A stretch of DNA of 64,000 nucleotides from Vibrio sp. SCSIO 43137 (lineage in GTDB: Bacteria > Pseudomonadota > Gammaproteobacteria > Enterobacterales > Vibrionaceae), in assembly GCF_028201475.1 (NCBI RefSeq), contig NZ_CP116383.1:1674001-1738000 (forward strand). Reading direction: 5' to 3'. The number at the start of each line of letters is the position of its first letter. Positions within the stretch are counted from its first letter, which is position 1. The notes below the pieces were generated by a model that searched no databases, was not told where the DNA came from, and saw nothing but the letters and a program-made list of their open reading frames with translations. Shown piece after piece: positions 57,752 through 64,000 of this stretch. A program made the translations under genes and the position numbers.

Positions 57752-58222
57752 ACCCTATAATCCTTTATACAAGTGATAACAATTAACCCCGGAAGATTAA
57801 TACATGAGCTACCATGACCATTTTGTTACAGAATTAATATTGGCAGGAACACTGAGCGCCTTTTGCAACACCACTACGCATTAGACCTTGGTATTAAGTA
57901 GTTATACGTAGCCTAATCGCCTGTTATTTTTTATCCTTCTGTTTTATATAGTTTAATAGAAAACACGATGTTCACTTACACGGATAAACACTTAGGTATT
58001 ACAACCTAATAAGAAAGTTACCAGAATTAACATAAATTAGAGTTTTTGCACGTTTTAGTGGTTAAAGTGCTTAGCCTGAAGTGTATTACTAATCTGTAAA
58101 CTAACTTTATATCAGGTTGACTGGCATAGTTACCCTCAGAAAAATTGAGATGATAACTATGCCTATAAAGTGAGATTTACAACAATTTTATCGCCAGATT
58201 AACCATTGTGAGTGGCTATTAT
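57752..58222. other. Non-coding gap before the accessory region
   Basis: 471 bp with no convincing gene on either strand. It is AT-rich, should hold the dctP promoter near its left end, and marks the change to the AT-rich accessory DNA. I see no inverted repeat or operator worth naming. Confidence 0.5.
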
Positions 58223-58977
58223 CTAAAGTGTGAGTTTTACTTTTCTTCTCTGATCTACACCTAGAATCAACTGCCCATTAGACGAGGATTGTATTGAATT
58301 TTTGGTAGCAACAATATCCATCTCAAACACGCATTTGTCATAACCTTGCTTTAGTTGTGCTTGAGTTTTTTCGAATATATCACTCAGGCTCTTATTATAA
58401 GATCCCGAATTAAGTATATGCTCACCCGCCCTTATATCCGGTGATACGCCAGAGATGTATGTTTTTACATTGTTTTTACATTGTTTTTACAGGTCAACCA
58501 TTCTCCCAGATAAACATATTTATGATCTGCTTCCGGAGCCCATGACACATCGATCACTTCACCTGCTAAACTTGAGGTTAATGTAAAAGGTAAAGGTAAC
58601 TCGGTTGCTGTCAGTGAACTGATAACCACATTATCTCTTATAAATTTAACCGTATATTCTGAAGCATTTGCTGACACAACAGGACTAGTATAATAGACCC
58701 CGCCAGTTTCCTGCGTCTCAGTCAGAATAAAATTTACGCCATCGACCTCGGCGACAAGTTTGTCGTTACCACCTAATTCTATATATTGCTGTAAAGGGTC
58801 TTTAACATATGCGGTAAACTTAGCTTCAGATGAAGTTTCTCCCGACAATATAAAATCCACACGTACATCAGAAGTTGCAAAGTCACTGCTCAAATTAACT
58901 TTGTTTGAACTGGAACCACCTCCCCCACCACCACAACCGACAAGAAAAACTAAAGCTAATATATAATATGCTTTCAT
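58223..58977 (-). pseudogene. Lipoprotein gene split by an 11-bp tandem duplication
   Basis: The first 170 codons (58977 to 58465) encode a lipoprotein: signal peptide with lipobox LVGC, cysteine followed by six glycines, then an extracytoplasmic domain of unknown family. The frame stops after VKTM inside the repeat TGTAAAAACAA-TGTAAAAACAA. Removing one 11-bp unit restores an open frame to TAG at 58223-58225, adding about 76 codons (TYISGVSPDIRAGEHILNSG and on) for a 247-aa protein, and the corrected length is an exact multiple of three. The longer form is therefore ancestral. The shorter form may still be made. Confidence 0.8.
58466..58496. repeat. 11-bp direct repeat, nearly three units
   Basis: Minus strand: TGTAAAAACAA twice in a row, then TGTAAAAACA. 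Loss or gain of one unit shifts the lipoprotein reading frame. Confidence 0.85.
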
Positions 58978-59235
58978 AGAACCACCCTTTCTAACTGATA
59001 TTTAAAATAATGCGATCTTTTGAATGTTAGGATAAGAATCTATAAGTATTTTAAACTGGAACGTTTAATTACTTGTAGATTCATTATTTCACAGAAATCC
59101 AAAAATTCTATTCAGAAAAAACTCTAACAGTTCAAGATTTAATAATCACCAACCAATAATAAAAGCGTTTCATTGAAATAAAACAAATAAAAAGTAGCAA
59201 ATTTCGTTATTATCAGAATCTATATAATATATTTA

Positions 59236-59347
59236 TACCTTGTTCCCACGGTCTCCGTGGGAATACATACCGGATTTACTAATACCCACGTAACTAGCTT
59301 TATTTCTACCTACGCTATGCATTGCCACGCAAAGCATGGCAACGAGA
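59236..59347. repeat. Double-hairpin dispersed repeat, copy 1
   Basis: Begins TACCTTGTTCCCACGG and ends GGCAACGAG. The left hairpin is TTCCCACGG-TCT-CCGTGGGAA (59243-59263), perfect. The right is TTGCCACGC-AAA-GCATGGCAA, one mismatch. A spacer of about 60 bp is partly conserved. It lies just 3' of the first 159-aa gene and is closely similar to copies at 60303 and 62082. The 399-bp gap 58978-59376 holds nothing else I can name. Confidence 0.9.
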
Positions 59348-59376
59348 GTGGTGCTTATAAATACCATAATTTGAAA

Positions 59377-59856
59377 CTAAGCCGATAAATCTTTTTCTTT
59401 TATTCTTTTTCTTTGGCTACAATACGCACCTAACAAAAAACTAGCGGAAATAAATAACGGCTGTATATAACCAAAACCAATGACAAGTGATACGTAAATC
59501 AAACCGTTCAATATATGCAATTTTCGTTCTAGCTTATACTTTCTCCCTAATAAAAACAAACTAAGACATCCTATCGGAAGAAGAAGAAAGTAACGAAAAA
59601 ACATTATCCTTTTATTGAACAAGTCCAAGTTAAGAATATATCTGATACGAACTTTCTCTTTCTGAGACAGAATTTTCGATTCTTGTTTAGTAATGACTCT
59701 GTTCTTCAGTTCACCGTACATTTTGGAGTAACCTGAAGTATCAATCGGTGTATTTTTAATTTCATACTTAGCTATAGTGCTCTGAGCATAATACAGAAGC
59801 ACTATTACCAATCCGATTGATAGCATTTTTACCGCGGAGAACAAGTATTTTCTCAT
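59377..59856 (-). CDS. Small membrane protein, paralogue A (orphan immunity candidate)
   Basis: A 159-aa protein with a helix at about 10-30, an external polar loop (about 31-85) and two or three C-terminal helices (about 87-104, 112-145), ending RKRIKEKDLSA. It is a paralogue of the gene at 60444: both termini are almost identical, while the loop has diverged strongly. Neither matches a family I know. The position, in a row of small genes behind an Rhs-type toxin gene, suggests an immunity protein; this is inference. AT-rich compared with the core genes. Confidence 0.72.
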   Translation of the reverse strand: MRKYLFSAVKMLSIGLVIVLLYYAQSTIAKYEIKNTPIDTSGYSKMYGELKNRVITKQESKILSQKEKVRIRYILNLDLFNKRIMFFRYFLLLPIGCLSLFLLGRKYKLERKLHILNGLIYVSLVIGFGYIQPLFISASFLLGAYCSQRKRIKEKDLSA

Positions 59857-59906
59857 AGCGATGTTGCTTTAATGTCCAATTAAAAATTCAATTTTACGCT
59901 ACTATC

Positions 59907-60248
59907 TTAACTGCTACCGTAAGCTTTAACATGGTTTTCCAAACCAACCAATGATACATAGAACATTATCGGCAAGACTAATAAGACAACAATATAATCA
60001 GGGATTAGAACGCAACTTATCGCAGATAAAACGGAGATCAACAACACGCTAATTCTGTATTTTCGATCAGTTTTAAACATTAATCTAGGGTACTTCTGTA
60101 TAAATCCAATGTAACACATCATCGCAATTACCAATGCTTCATATCGACCAGTTTTAATATAAATAGATGTCAGAGGTATAGCTGCTCCAGATAACATCAT
60201 TATCATTAATTTTGGATATATACCCTTTATTTCGAAGGCTCTGCTCAT
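59907..60248 (-). CDS. Small four-helix membrane protein (immunity candidate)
   Basis: A 113-aa protein that is almost entirely hydrophobic: helices at about 14-31, 36-52, 65-80 and 83-101, with short basic loops (KTGRYE, KTDRKYR). No family recognised. It lies between paralogue A and a copy of the double-hairpin repeat, in the same direction as the Rhs toxin gene. Size and hydrophobicity resemble the toxin-linked immunity candidate at 62246, without clear sequence similarity. Confidence 0.65.
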   Translation of the reverse strand: MSRAFEIKGIYPKLMIMMLSGAAIPLTSIYIKTGRYEALVIAMMCYIGFIQKYPRLMFKTDRKYRISVLLISVLSAISCVLIPDYIVVLLVLPIMFYVSLVGLENHVKAYGSS

Positions 60249-60302
60249 GAAACATCCTTAATTCGAGAATTTACTAGTTATTAACATCTAAGTAATCTGA
60301 AC

Positions 60303-60414
60303 TACCTTGTTCCCACGGTCTCCGTGGGAATACATACCAGATTTACTAATACCTGCATAATTTACCCATATTTCAAACTTCGCTATGCGTTGCCACGCTA
60401 TGCATGGCAACGAG
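60303..60414. repeat. Double-hairpin dispersed repeat, copy 2
   Basis: Same left hairpin as copy 1 (TTCCCACGG-TCT-CCGTGGGAA) and a right hairpin TTGCCACGC-TAT-GCATGGCAA. The spacer is diverged from copies 1 and 3. It is immediately 3' of paralogue B, in the same relative position as copy 1 to paralogue A, so repeat and gene were duplicated together. Confidence 0.9.
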
Positions 60415-60443
60415 TGTGTTGCTTATAAACACCATAATAAAAA

Positions 60444-60923
60444 CTAAGCTGATAAATCTTTCTCCTTTATTCTCTTTCTTTGGCTATAATACGCACCTAA
60501 CAAAAAACTAGCGGAAATAAATAACGGTTGTATATAACCAAAACCAATGACAAGTGATGCATAGATAATCCCACTTGATATATATGAGTTTCGATCTAGC
60601 TTATACCTTCGTCCTAATATGAACATACTAATACATCCAATAGGAAGCAGAAGAAAATAATGAAAGAATGTTATTTTCTTTTCAAAAAGATCTTTATTTA
60701 GTCTATACCTAACTGCTTCTTCACTTTTTTTTCTAAGAATTACACCTTCTTGTTTAGATATTACTTTATCCTTAGCATAGTTATAAAAATCGCTAAAACC
60801 AGAATTATCAACAGGCATATTATTAATCTCATACTTAGCTATAGTGCTCTGAGCAAAATACAGAAGCACTATTACCAATCCGATTGATACCATTTTTACC
60901 GCGGAGAGCAGGTTATTACGCAT
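60444..60923 (-). CDS. Small membrane protein, paralogue B (orphan immunity candidate)
   Basis: A 159-aa paralogue of the gene at 59377, same length and topology. The first 33 residues (SAVKM, SIGLVIVLLY, AQSTIAKYE) and the last 40 (YIQPLFISASFLLGAY, SQRKRIKEKDLSA) are nearly unchanged between the two, while residues about 35-85, predicted to be outside the membrane, differ at most positions. This is the pattern expected for duplicated immunity genes diversifying in specificity. The link to the Rhs toxin is inference from position. Confidence 0.72.
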   Translation of the reverse strand: MRNNLLSAVKMVSIGLVIVLLYFAQSTIAKYEINNMPVDNSGFSDFYNYAKDKVISKQEGVILRKKSEEAVRYRLNKDLFEKKITFFHYFLLLPIGCISMFILGRRYKLDRNSYISSGIIYASLVIGFGYIQPLFISASFLLGAYYSQRKRIKEKDLSA

Positions 60924-61035
60924 ATGCTTATTCCATCTAACTTCCAGTAAGTGTTATGGTCAAACTCATGCAGAATCCAATAAGGCGCTGCGGAAGTTGC
61001 TACATGTTCCCCAATAGAAAATAGTTCTTTTGAGT

Positions 61036-61102
61036 TATACATACTTAGCATATTAGAACCTACATAGCGTATACCTTTACTTCAGTCTACGCTATGCAAC
61101 AC
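61036..61102. repeat. Degenerate remnant of the dispersed repeat
   Basis: ATACATACTTAGCATATTAG, then ACCTACATAG and CTACGCTATGCAACAC, aligns with the spacer of copy 3 but lacks both hairpins. It lies in the 190-bp gap between paralogue B and the exported pair and marks a decayed cassette boundary. Confidence 0.6.
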
Positions 61103-61113
61103 ATTACTAATCA

Positions 61114-61560
61114 TTAATTACAATCAGCTTGAAAGAATGTCCCATCACCGGCCAGCTTTATAATTACACGTTGTTCGTTAATTTCTTTCACCTCAATACT
61201 GCTACCCCGGGACGAAATCATTAATATTTCTTCCATATAGTCACGCCTCATTAAATAAAGTAAATTAATATCTGAAAACCTATTAATACCCTTTATTCTT
61301 TGATAATGAAATGATGTTCCTTTATACTCTTCCAAAATTTCAGCGTTTTCATGACTATCATTCAGCGTAGGCTCATACATTTCCTCAAAATCAATTATCA
61401 CATTCTTTGTAAGTGATGAATAAACCTTACTGCTTAGTCTCTCCATGTCCAAGGGGATGCTCCAGCGACATCCCATAAAGTTATAGCTTTCTGCATACAC
61501 CAAGACCGAATCAAGCATTAAATAAGTAGTCATCTGCATTATTAGTACAAACTTACTCAT
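61114..61560 (-). CDS. Exported protein, paralogue 2 of a pair
   Basis: A 148-aa protein with an N-terminal hydrophobic export signal (about 5-22) and a mature domain of about 120 residues. It shares FMGC-W-IP-D-ERL at about residues 28-42, the YQR and LLYLMRRDY segments and a cysteine close to the C-terminus with the next gene upstream. The two conserved cysteines may form a disulfide in the periplasm. No family recognised. It follows its paralogue by 15 bp, so they form a two-gene unit. Confidence 0.7.
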   Translation of the reverse strand: MSKFVLIMQMTTYLMLDSVLVYAESYNFMGCRWSIPLDMERLSSKVYSSLTKNVIIDFEEMYEPTLNDSHENAEILEEYKGTSFHYQRIKGINRFSDINLLYLMRRDYMEEILMISSRGSSIEVKEINEQRVIIKLAGDGTFFQADCN

Positions 61561-61575
61561 TATCTATACCAGTCA

Positions 61576-62034
61576 TCACTCAAGATCACAACTTGCCGTA
61601 ATCTTATAGTCTTTGTTCTCAGCTACTAATTCAATGCTACTTTCACTTAACTCACTCACTAAAATATCACCATCGCGAATAGATATCGTCAAAATTTCTT
61701 TATCAAAATTATCCCTAACCAAATAAAGAAATTTAATATAGGAAAGTTCTCCTTTCCCGGATAGACGTTGAAAACGAAACCCTTGTTCTGTGTAATCTTC
61801 CAAAACCTTTGCATCACTATATATAGACTTTAATTGAGTTAAGTCAGAACCTCTATCAAAGTAAATTTTGCTATGCTTAGAAAGTGAAAAATATGTATCA
61901 TCATTCAACCTCTCAAAATCATAAGGAATATCCCAGTAACATCCCATAAATGTACTTTGACTACGTGACATAGAAGAGAAGCTAATTGCAAGAGAAGTAA
62001 ACGTAATTATAATAGTCAGTAATAACTTCATCAT
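61576..62034 (-). CDS. Exported protein, paralogue 1 of a pair
   Basis: A 152-aa protein with a signal peptide (about 1-20, MMKLLLTIIITFTSLAISFS) and the same mature plan as its downstream paralogue: FMGCYWDIPYDFERLNDDTY near the N-terminus, FRFQRLSGKG and FLYLVRDNFDKEILTISIRDG in the middle, and a cysteine four residues from the end. Sequence identity between the two is low, but the motif order is the same. A periplasmic immunity role is plausible from its place in the Rhs gene array, but unproven. Confidence 0.7.
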   Translation of the reverse strand: MMKLLLTIIITFTSLAISFSSMSRSQSTFMGCYWDIPYDFERLNDDTYFSLSKHSKIYFDRGSDLTQLKSIYSDAKVLEDYTEQGFRFQRLSGKGELSYIKFLYLVRDNFDKEILTISIRDGDILVSELSESSIELVAENKDYKITASCDLE

Positions 62035-62081
62035 TCATACCCCACTACTTCACACGTAATACTTTGGCAGTTATAATCAAA

Positions 62082-62193
62082 TACCTTGTTCCCACGGTCT
62101 CCGTGGGAATACATACCAGATTTGCTAACACCTACATATTTAGCCTTTATTTCTACCTACGCTATGCATTGCCACGCAGAGCATGGCAACGAG
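62082..62193. repeat. Double-hairpin dispersed repeat, copy 3
   Basis: Left hairpin TTCCCACGG-TCT-CCGTGGGAA, spacer ACATACCAGATTTGCTAAC and on, right hairpin TTGCCACGC-AGA-GCATGGCAA ending in CGAG. It separates the toxin-linked immunity candidate from the exported pair. Confidence 0.9.
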
Positions 62194-62245
62194 TGTCCTG
62201 AGTATATATCTTGTTCCTATACCCCTACGATGTGTAGTCTTTCTA

Positions 62246-62596
62246 TTATTGTCCAAATCCATTTTTTTTAATTAATATGGCAATACATATTGGAATAGGA
62301 AGAAAAACAACCATCCAAAAAGCAAACATTCCTATCGAAAAACCAAATGCATGAAATGGTAGAAAGTTGATATAGATAGCAACATAGAAAACTAATAAAG
62401 TTAACATGAAAAACCTATAGAGCCGAAAGCTATTGAATGAACAATACAGACCAACAACCATCATAAGAACATAAGCAGCAATCTCTATAAACTCATTACT
62501 AATCCCACTAACGTTCCATTCCAATAATAATACTAATAAATTAAAAACCACAAACAAAACTATTGATAATATATAAATTCTACGAAATAAAGTCAT
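62246..62596 (-). CDS. Four-helix membrane protein, probable immunity protein of the Rhs toxin
   Basis: A 116-aa hydrophobic protein with helices at about 7-28, 36-54, 59-80 and 86-110. Its ATG at 62594-62596 overlaps the TGA of the toxin gene (ATGA), the tight coupling expected of a toxin and its cognate immunity gene. A membrane immunity protein would suggest a toxin that acts on or enters through the inner membrane. No family recognised, so function is inferred only from position and topology. Confidence 0.75.
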   Translation of the reverse strand: MTLFRRIYILSIVLFVVFNLLVLLLEWNVSGISNEFIEIAAYVLMMVVGLYCSFNSFRLYRFFMLTLLVFYVAIYINFLPFHAFGFSIGMFAFWMVVFLPIPICIAILIKKNGFGQ

Positions 62597-64000
62597 TCAT
62601 TCATATTCCTTTGAAATGATTGTTGTTCACACATAACAATACAGTACTCCTTATTATTTTGATACCTCTCAAAAAAAGTATATATATAAATTCCCGCGTC
62701 ATATTGTTTAGGGACTGGTAAGTCTTTAAGATCCATAAGCGTTTTACCATTGCTATACACATTATTAAGGGCTTCTGTTACTTCATTACCTCCTTTACCA
62801 AATATTGTACCAGCTATCGAACACGTGACTGTCTCATACACGGAGCAACCATAAGATGTATCAGGATTTAGCCCTGCAGCAGTAAGAGCTACGTTATCTC
62901 TATGCTGCCAAACTCCATCGCTACGCTTCGCCATTTCAGACCTAGATGAATGAGTATCAGATTGGTTGTCATTATATAGATAAATCATAACCACACTCAC
63001 CGCGGTGCGCAGTACTGCATCCTGACTATTAGCACCGCTTGCGGCGGCTGCAACGGCAGAGACGATCACCAGACCGCCACCTTCCATCAGAGTAAGGGTG
63101 TTATCGCCATTATGAACAAGGCTTCCACCCATCTTGCCAATAACTCCGGCGATAAAGCCTTGTTTAAAGCTGCCGCCACGCATTTCATGGAAACCGCCCT
63201 GCACTACACCGTGCGCTAATGGCAGAGCATCACCAAACGGGCTGGTGCCACCGGTCGCACCGTGAGCCACACCGTAGGTTACTAACGCTGACATTCCACC
63301 CATTGCCCCTGCTTCTGCTGCGCAAGCGAAATCTCCGGTCATCACATAATTGGTGGTAAACGAAGTAGTAGCACCAGCAGCGGCTATTTGTGCATGTTCA
63401 CTTAAACCTGTATAAAATCCGCCAGCACCATAGGCCATCATCACCGAACCAACGATAGCACCAACCTTCTGAATTGCCGGGTCATCAAATGTCTGGGAGA
63501 CGACAAATATTGTTAACCCGGCAATAAACCATCCCCATACATGCCCTGTAGGGTCATTAAACTTCACCGGATTATTCAGTACATAGGCGTAACGGTTATA
63601 GCTCTGGCTATAGCCAGGTTCCGGTATATAACTGTCGGCAGTTAAGAACCGGCCGATAACCGGATCATACAGTCGCGCATTCATATTAATCAGATTACTG
63701 CTGTAACCGACATTTTCATGGCCGGTAAAACCACGTAATTCTTTATTAATAAACATTGGCGGCGATTGCAGTTCAACAGAGGCCAGTAACTCACCAAATG
63801 GCGTGTAGCCCCGTTCTATCTGAACCTGTCCGTTAGGATCCGTGACAAGATCAGTGGTTTCCAACGCATCCCGGTGGAAATAAGCGGTACGGTCGATCTG
63901 CTTCTCTTCTTCTATCAGGGTCTTAACATGCTCAGCCACTGCATTTTTATCTGCAATGATACGGTGACGCATCTTGGTGATCTTTTTGCCTTTCTTATCA
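62593..64000 (-). CDS. Rhs/YD-repeat polymorphic toxin, C-terminal part only
   Basis: The frame enters from the right edge and is open to the stop at 62593, giving about 469 residues of a much larger protein. The Rhs-associated core is clear: GYTPFGELLAS, RGFTGHENVGYSSNLINMNARLYDPVIGRFLTADS (quoted in parts: MNARLYDPVIGRFLTADSYI) and NRYAYVLNNPVKFNDPTGH. After DPTG about 320 residues form the variable tip: a glycine/alanine-rich hydrophobic region, then a polar, cysteine-containing end (SYGCSVYETVTCSIAGTIFG, EYCIVMCEQQ) that I do not recognise as any toxin family. The immunity candidate follows with a 4-bp overlap. Confidence 0.88.
   Translation of the reverse strand, partial: DKKGKKITKMRHRIIADKNAVAEHVKTLIEEEKQIDRTAYFHRDALETTDLVTDPNGQVQIERGYTPFGELLASVELQSPPMFINKELRGFTGHENVGYSSNLINMNARLYDPVIGRFLTADSYIPEPGYSQSYNRYAYVLNNPVKFNDPTGHVWGWFIAGLTIFVVSQTFDDPAIQKVGAIVGSVMMAYGAGGFYTGLSEHAQIAAAGATTSFTTNYVMTGDFACAAEAGAMGGMSALVTYGVAHGATGGTSPFGDALPLAHGVVQGGFHEMRGGSFKQGFIAGVIGKMGGSLVHNGDNTLTLMEGGGLVIVSAVAAAASGANSQDAVLRTAVSVVMIYLYNDNQSDTHSSRSEMAKRSDGVWQHRDNVALTAAGLNPDTSYGCSVYETVTCSIAGTIFGKGGNEVTEALNNVYSNGKTLMDLKDLPVPKQYDAGIYIYTFFERYQNNKEYCIVMCEQQSFQRNMNE

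Follow-up and report, generated by a model that had tools for sequence, protein, structure and literature searches.

A 64,000-nucleotide (nt) stretch of the Vibrio sp. SCSIO 43137 genome (contig NZ_CP116383.1, positions 1,674,001 to 1,738,000; hereafter the window) ends within an Rhs gene that is followed on the same, minus strand by six small open reading frames (ORFs) encoding, in order of transcription, proteins of 116, 152, 148, 159, 113 and 159 amino acids (aa). We consider this most likely a polymorphic-toxin locus built on an Rhs protein that has a signal peptide and gives no PAAR hit, in which the first small gene would be the cognate immunity gene of the Rhs tip and the other five orphan immunity genes. 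Among these tandem genes of different families, two of the six (116 and 113 aa) are backed by relatives that adjoin tips, while the case for the other four is suggestive. The original prediction, made from the letters of the window, had read the whole array as immunity-like; that reading is well supported for the 116-aa gene, fairly well supported for the 113-aa gene and only suggested for the remainder.

The array and its surroundings

All six small proteins have at least one hydrophobic segment in a crude hydropathy scan at a threshold of 1.4; at 1.6 the 148-aa protein has none. They comprise two paralogue pairs (159/159 and 152/148 aa) and two singles (116 and 113 aa). The ORFs, hydropathy and identities thus confirm the layout first described, namely six small co-directional genes behind a partial Rhs gene, membrane-bound or exported, with two pairs of paralogues and a repeat among them (Table 1). 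The GC content of the array is 32–34%, compared with 43–51% at 52–58 kb. None of the small array proteins passes a curated Pfam or NCBIfam cut-off or matches PADLOC (to which the lipoprotein at 58465 was not submitted), sequence searches with three alignments return no solved-structure relative below E 0.2, and Rfam gives no match over 58000–64000.

Table 1 Features at the Rhs locus, in order of transcription (positions in the window)
Feature	Position	Strand	Basis or remark
3′ part of Rhs gene: core, conserved pre-tip, tip	62593..64000	-	2213-aa ORF extends past the window
Polymorphic tip of Rhs protein, ~last 120 residues	62593..62979	-	57% / 52% identity to G181 / G059 tips
116-aa multi-pass membrane protein, likely cognate immunity	62246..62596	-	4-nt overlap with Rhs stop
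Dispersed two-hairpin repeat, copy 1	62081..62206	.	Folding versus shuffles
152-aa protein, candidate orphan immunity; Mog1/PsbP-like fold (modelled)	61576..62034	-	Signal-like N-terminus, two Cys common with paralogue
148-aa paralogue of 152-aa protein	61114..61560	-	Pairwise comparison
Decayed repeat piece	61063..61098	.	Sequence comparison
159-aa membrane protein, candidate orphan immunity	60444..60923	-	Paralogue comparison
Dispersed two-hairpin repeat, copy 2	60302..60427	.	Folding versus shuffles
113-aa membrane protein	59907..60248	-	Relatives immediately follow two related tips (Vibrio SWAT-3, V. sonorensis)
159-aa paralogue, duplicated along with repeat	59377..59856	-	Sequence comparison
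Dispersed two-hairpin repeat, copy 3	59235..59360	.	Folding versus shuffles
Lipoprotein gene, locus end in relatives (264-265 aa in three)	58465..58977	-	Frame broken in last third here

Variable tips within a conserved locus

In the whole genome the Rhs frame forms an ORF of 2213 aa (2257 codons from stop to stop; L004:4593-11234), in which a domain search finds RHS repeats, an FG-GAP repeat, a TcdB-like middle part and the Rhs-associated core, with PF05593 and TIGR03696 above cut-off. A PAAR domain was not found in this ORF at E 0.01, a 79-aa N-terminal piece that precedes it not itself having been scanned. The C-terminal 468 residues match 41 of 247 Vibrionaceae genomes at E below 1e-10, our own genome (G000) included. 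The closest relatives share the pre-tip, to about residue 347, and mostly not the tip; the same pre-tip carries different tips in relatives, which is the variability that characterizes an Rhs polymorphic toxin locus. A pre-tip profile finds six loci in named genomes: Vibrionales SWAT-3, Vibrio sp. Hep-1b-8 (G241), V. thalassae (G200, two loci), V. barjaei (G181) and V. sonorensis.

The locus has a conserved frame. An Lnt-like gene (with LNT_N and CN_hydrolase above cut-off) and a small membrane gene come before the Rhs gene, which is followed by a variable stretch and then by a glycine-rich lipoprotein gene. At the V. thalassae locus G200:C142, displaced tips with small membrane genes behind them occupy the stretch before the lipoprotein gene, and V. 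barjaei has one orphan tip. The lipoprotein encoded at 58465-58977 is of the glycine-rich type that closes the locus in relatives, here with a broken frame. The Lnt-like and small membrane genes precede the Rhs gene both here, just beyond the window (L004:12144-13649 and L004:11603-12124), and in five relatives. They may possibly help to export or anchor the Rhs protein; none of the titles listed by a literature search concerned this.

Tips and predicted immunity genes travel together

Comparison of the loci shows that the first variable gene goes with the tip. The tip of our Rhs protein is common to G181 and G059 and to a displaced, frame-broken copy in G200, whose second piece matches at 50% identity over 72 residues. 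The profile for the 116-aa family has strong matches (E below 1e-40) in 4 of the 247 Vibrionaceae genomes, G000, G181, G059 and G200; it was built from those four proteins, so that the informative result is the absence of others together with constant adjacency. Four further rows at E near 8e-4 all had internal stops and were discarded as chance. The family gene lies directly behind the tip in all four genomes where that tip was found, tips having been sought at E below 1e-10 with a long query that a lone diverged tip could escape. In pairwise comparison, the 116-aa protein is linked to its G181 and G059 relatives by scores that beat 1000 of 1000 shuffles. Its link to the G200 relative is weak when taken alone (reached by 11/1000 class shuffles), and that relative is firmly linked to the one in G059. 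With a linked gene immediately downstream of the tip in 4/4 genomes, the prediction from sequence that the 116-aa gene is the cognate immunity gene of the Rhs tip is well supported.

Other tips of the family behave in the same manner. The G181 orphan tip and the G200:C125 tip are 87% identical and the genes behind them 74%, while the Hep-1b-8 tip and a displaced G200:C142 tip are 63% identical and the genes behind them 52%. At least one membrane segment is predicted in 10 of the 10 small genes adjoining tips of this Rhs family, a set that leaves out a 118-aa G200:C142 gene, which has a signal-like start, lacks a segment at the 1.6 threshold (1.55) and follows a 1333-aa ORF not matching this Rhs family.

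The 113-aa gene further down the array belongs to a second such family. The SWAT-3 and V. sonorensis tips share 35% identity (E 3e-21), and the genes that follow them are likewise related (score 80, 0/1000 shuffles); the 113-aa protein joins this family with scores of 93 (0/1000) and 67 (2/1000 hydropathy-class shuffles). Four weak rows in one search, three of them with stops, were dropped as chance. The identification of the 113-aa gene as a predicted immunity gene is fairly well supported. Homologues directly downstream of other Rhs tips, which the original prediction had proposed to look for, exist for both the 116-aa and the 113-aa families. In V. sonorensis, a short pre-tip remnant (L074:737-802) lies directly behind the 113-family gene; it is possibly the scar of a displaced tip, as expected of a decayed displaced unit.

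Searches for the tip in broader collections were less informative. No tip homologue was found at E 0.001 in a large protein set, among 102 candidates of similar total length; that set also missed the 71% paralogue of a 159-aa query, and its silence is weak evidence. A tip profile run against 394 genomes of the order found our own genome only, a result of little weight as the tip-holders G181 and G059 lie outside that sample.

The toxin gene is interrupted and no tips were found in the array

The Rhs gene carries an in-frame stop after codon 79, past the signal-peptide region and outside the window; beyond it the gene is a single open frame. The 79-aa piece upstream has a signal-like start and aligns to the N-termini of the relatives' Rhs proteins, full-length ones among them, with 66% identity over 73 residues to V. 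thalassae. The toxin gene is thus not intact, and given the early stop the weapon is probably silent in this genome, with the shields remaining. A sequencing error is a possible source of the stop codon.

The original prediction had seen no orphan tips in the array, and within the limits of our searches this is upheld. The Rhs C-terminal query matches our own genome once at E below 1e-10, a search that did not cover tips on other carriers, and tblastn with 214 protein queries from relatives finds no tip remnant in the array. A 51-aa ORF (60896-61051) ahead of one 159-aa gene was considered as a remnant and rejected, its best matches being unrelated proteins. Three features had escaped the earlier description: the early Rhs stop outside the window, the broken frame of the lipoprotein gene and the occurrence of parts of the repeat elsewhere in the genome.

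Two paralogue pairs

The 159-aa paralogues are 71% identical and lie in a duplicated unit: 59235-59857 duplicates 60302-60924 at a constant spacing of 1067 nt. The unit begins at the repeat's outer edge and extends as far as the start of the 159-aa gene, and so comprises the gene and the repeat behind it. The pair is a mosaic. Compared in 40-nt steps, the two genes are 83-98% identical over their first 120 nt and 90-98% over their last 120 nt; in between, identity is 48-60% at nt 121-240 and 68-78% over the following 120 nt. Third codon positions show a clustering of divergence as well (1/10000 permutations), which points to recombination rather than selection alone. Overall, nonsynonymous divergence (dN) is 0.20 and synonymous divergence (dS) 0.73, and therefore the copies look constrained. 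Searches return one weak relative of the pair; in another search five weak rows (three with internal stops, two in longer open frames) were dropped as chance. These genes are candidate orphan immunity genes, an assignment that is only suggestive.

The 152- and 148-aa paralogues are 34% identical, a score reached by 0/1000 shuffles; searches returned no relatives for this pair. A structure model of the 152-aa protein resembles Mog1/PsbP-like proteins, including the immunity proteins Tsi3 and TplEi/Tli4, which are the two type VI secretion system (T6SS) immunity proteins within the fold class that the model resembles. The resemblance, at the level of a model, only suggests that this pair too consists of candidate orphan immunity genes. 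Comparison gave no link between the 152-aa protein and the 120-126-aa immunity proteins of Hep-1b-8 and G200, and a BLAST match inside the G090 Rhs protein (E 0.003, without composition correction) was taken as chance.

A dispersed repeat between the genes

Three full copies of a two-hairpin repeat lie in the array within 3 kb, each with a better fold than any of 200 shuffles (z -3.5 to -3.9). The copies found in the genome, full and partial, number about a dozen. Outside the array the full two-hairpin form was found only at C2:650545; the remaining sites, which lie between ordinary genes on the two contigs, carry a single hairpin or a variant. The sole Y1_Tnp match in the genome, a 136-aa IS200-like ORF (L018:2643-3053), has variants of the hairpin repeat about 1.5 kb away and adjoins a gene that we take from its sequence to be obgE-like. 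The repeat occurs in 4 of 113 Vibrio genomes searched, our own included. It is absent, at up to three substitutions, from all 18 stretches of the Rhs relatives, and no protein of this array or of the relatives' arrays is encoded near 16 other repeat copies (about 1.5 kb either side).

Being palindromic, dispersed and intergenic, the repeat resembles repetitive extragenic palindromic (REP) sequences and bacterial interspersed mosaic elements (BIMEs); those exceed 100 copies per genome (PMC2817692), whereas the present repeat does not reach such high copy number. It is a REP-like dispersed element outside the immunity system. Repeats of this class can have an associated RAYT transposase; the one Y1_Tnp match here is the IS200-like ORF named above. 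As it lies in intergenic places elsewhere and is absent from the stretches of the Rhs relatives, it does not define cassettes, and the repeat-bounded cassettes of the original prediction are not supported in that form, save for the one duplication of gene plus repeat. The repeat may serve as a site of duplication.

Discussion

In the explanation that we favor, the five genes behind the cognate immunity gene would be orphan immunity genes that stayed behind as tip-plus-immunity units displaced one another, or that arose by duplication, and would be kept for protection against relatives carrying the corresponding tips. As the products of all six genes look membrane-bound or exported, the toxins that they match would presumably act at the envelope. 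Together, the Rhs stop, the frame-broken lipoprotein gene and the lack of tips suggest that the locus kept its shields after losing its weapon. A bolder version, which we think rather doubtful, would make the locus a stand-alone shield derived from a secreted Rhs system, with the toxin silenced, the orphan tips lost, and the immunity genes diversifying by duplication of gene plus repeat and by recombination that exchanges the central part of the 159-aa protein, its ends being conserved.

Two observations weigh against this explanation. The 152/148 pair has no convincing relative in the relatives' loci and the 159-aa pair a weak one only, and a solitary 113-family relative occurs away from toxins, in G036 of another Vibrionaceae genus (L089:9495-9767), possibly as a free-standing immunity gene. 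This is the single instance of what the original prediction had named as its refutation, namely homologues found mainly away from toxin genes. The dearth of relatives would fit an array in which the 116-aa and perhaps the 113-aa proteins are immunity proteins and the other four genes are unrelated, fast-evolving membrane or exported genes in an AT-rich variable spot. We regard this as unlikely, since the four genes sit within the segment that holds tip and immunity units in relatives, all are on the same strand with envelope-located products, and the 159-aa pair looks constrained.

The idea that the array is a cassette system built by the repeat, which would move immunity genes, draws on the constant-spacing duplication of a 159-aa gene with its repeat and on the crowding of three copies here when the full form occurs at one other site. 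Set against this are the ordinary intergenic positions of the repeat or its hairpins in our own genome and three other Vibrio, and the lack of array-type proteins near 16 of its other copies and of the repeat itself in 18 stretches from Rhs relatives, which leave the idea very unlikely. Least probable, in our view, is that the exported 152/148 pair are Eag-like accessory or chaperone proteins for the Rhs protein. Eag chaperones are cytoplasmic and act on membrane segments at the N-terminus of PAAR effectors, whereas the pair has signal-like N-termini and two shared cysteines, the Rhs ORF has no PAAR hit, and the relatives' loci offer no convincing counterpart. Orphan immunity remains our preferred reading of the five genes.

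The original prediction had also presented a defence-only array as an interesting variant, but its kind is already known. In Serratia, tip-less orphan immunity genes lie behind an Rhs-immunity pair, are contrasted by the authors with orphan tip-immunity modules, and include one shown to protect (PMC10539506). The present locus would likewise have orphan immunity genes, with no matching tip found, behind an Rhs gene and its likely immunity partner; Serratia Rhs1 differs in having two extra genes and T6SS delivery, compared with five extra genes and an interrupted Rhs gene here. V. cholerae T6SS clusters contain long arrays of orphan immunity genes 3′ of the effector-immunity pair, for which a displacement model has effectors displaced and immunity genes retained (PMC5361080). 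Our locus would resemble these arrays, with the difference that in place of T6SS effectors it has a signal-peptide Rhs protein with a TcdB-like middle and no PAAR hit. The mosaic 159-aa pair recalls the tandem esaG and tipC paralogues of the type VII secretion system (T7SS), with conserved blocks (in tipC, the 5′ and 3′ ends) and recombination (PMC9484751), although those are Firmicute T7SS genes, there are only two copies here, and we claim no relation between the proteins. Polyimmunity loci, defined in 2012, are also tandem immunity genes read as a defensive reserve (PMC3482391); they stand apart from ordinary toxin loci and contain named immunity families, whereas here unrecognised membrane proteins lie directly behind an Rhs gene.

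What is new here is the different Rhs family and the interrupted toxin gene. Tip-free orphan immunity genes have been described with T6SS effectors, and the locus would extend them to a Vibrio family of Rhs proteins with signal peptides; comparison with its relatives identifies several co-travelling tip-immunity pairs. It also illustrates that a repeat standing out between such genes can be an unremarkable part of the genome, and it provides an example of an apparent separation of weapon from shields.

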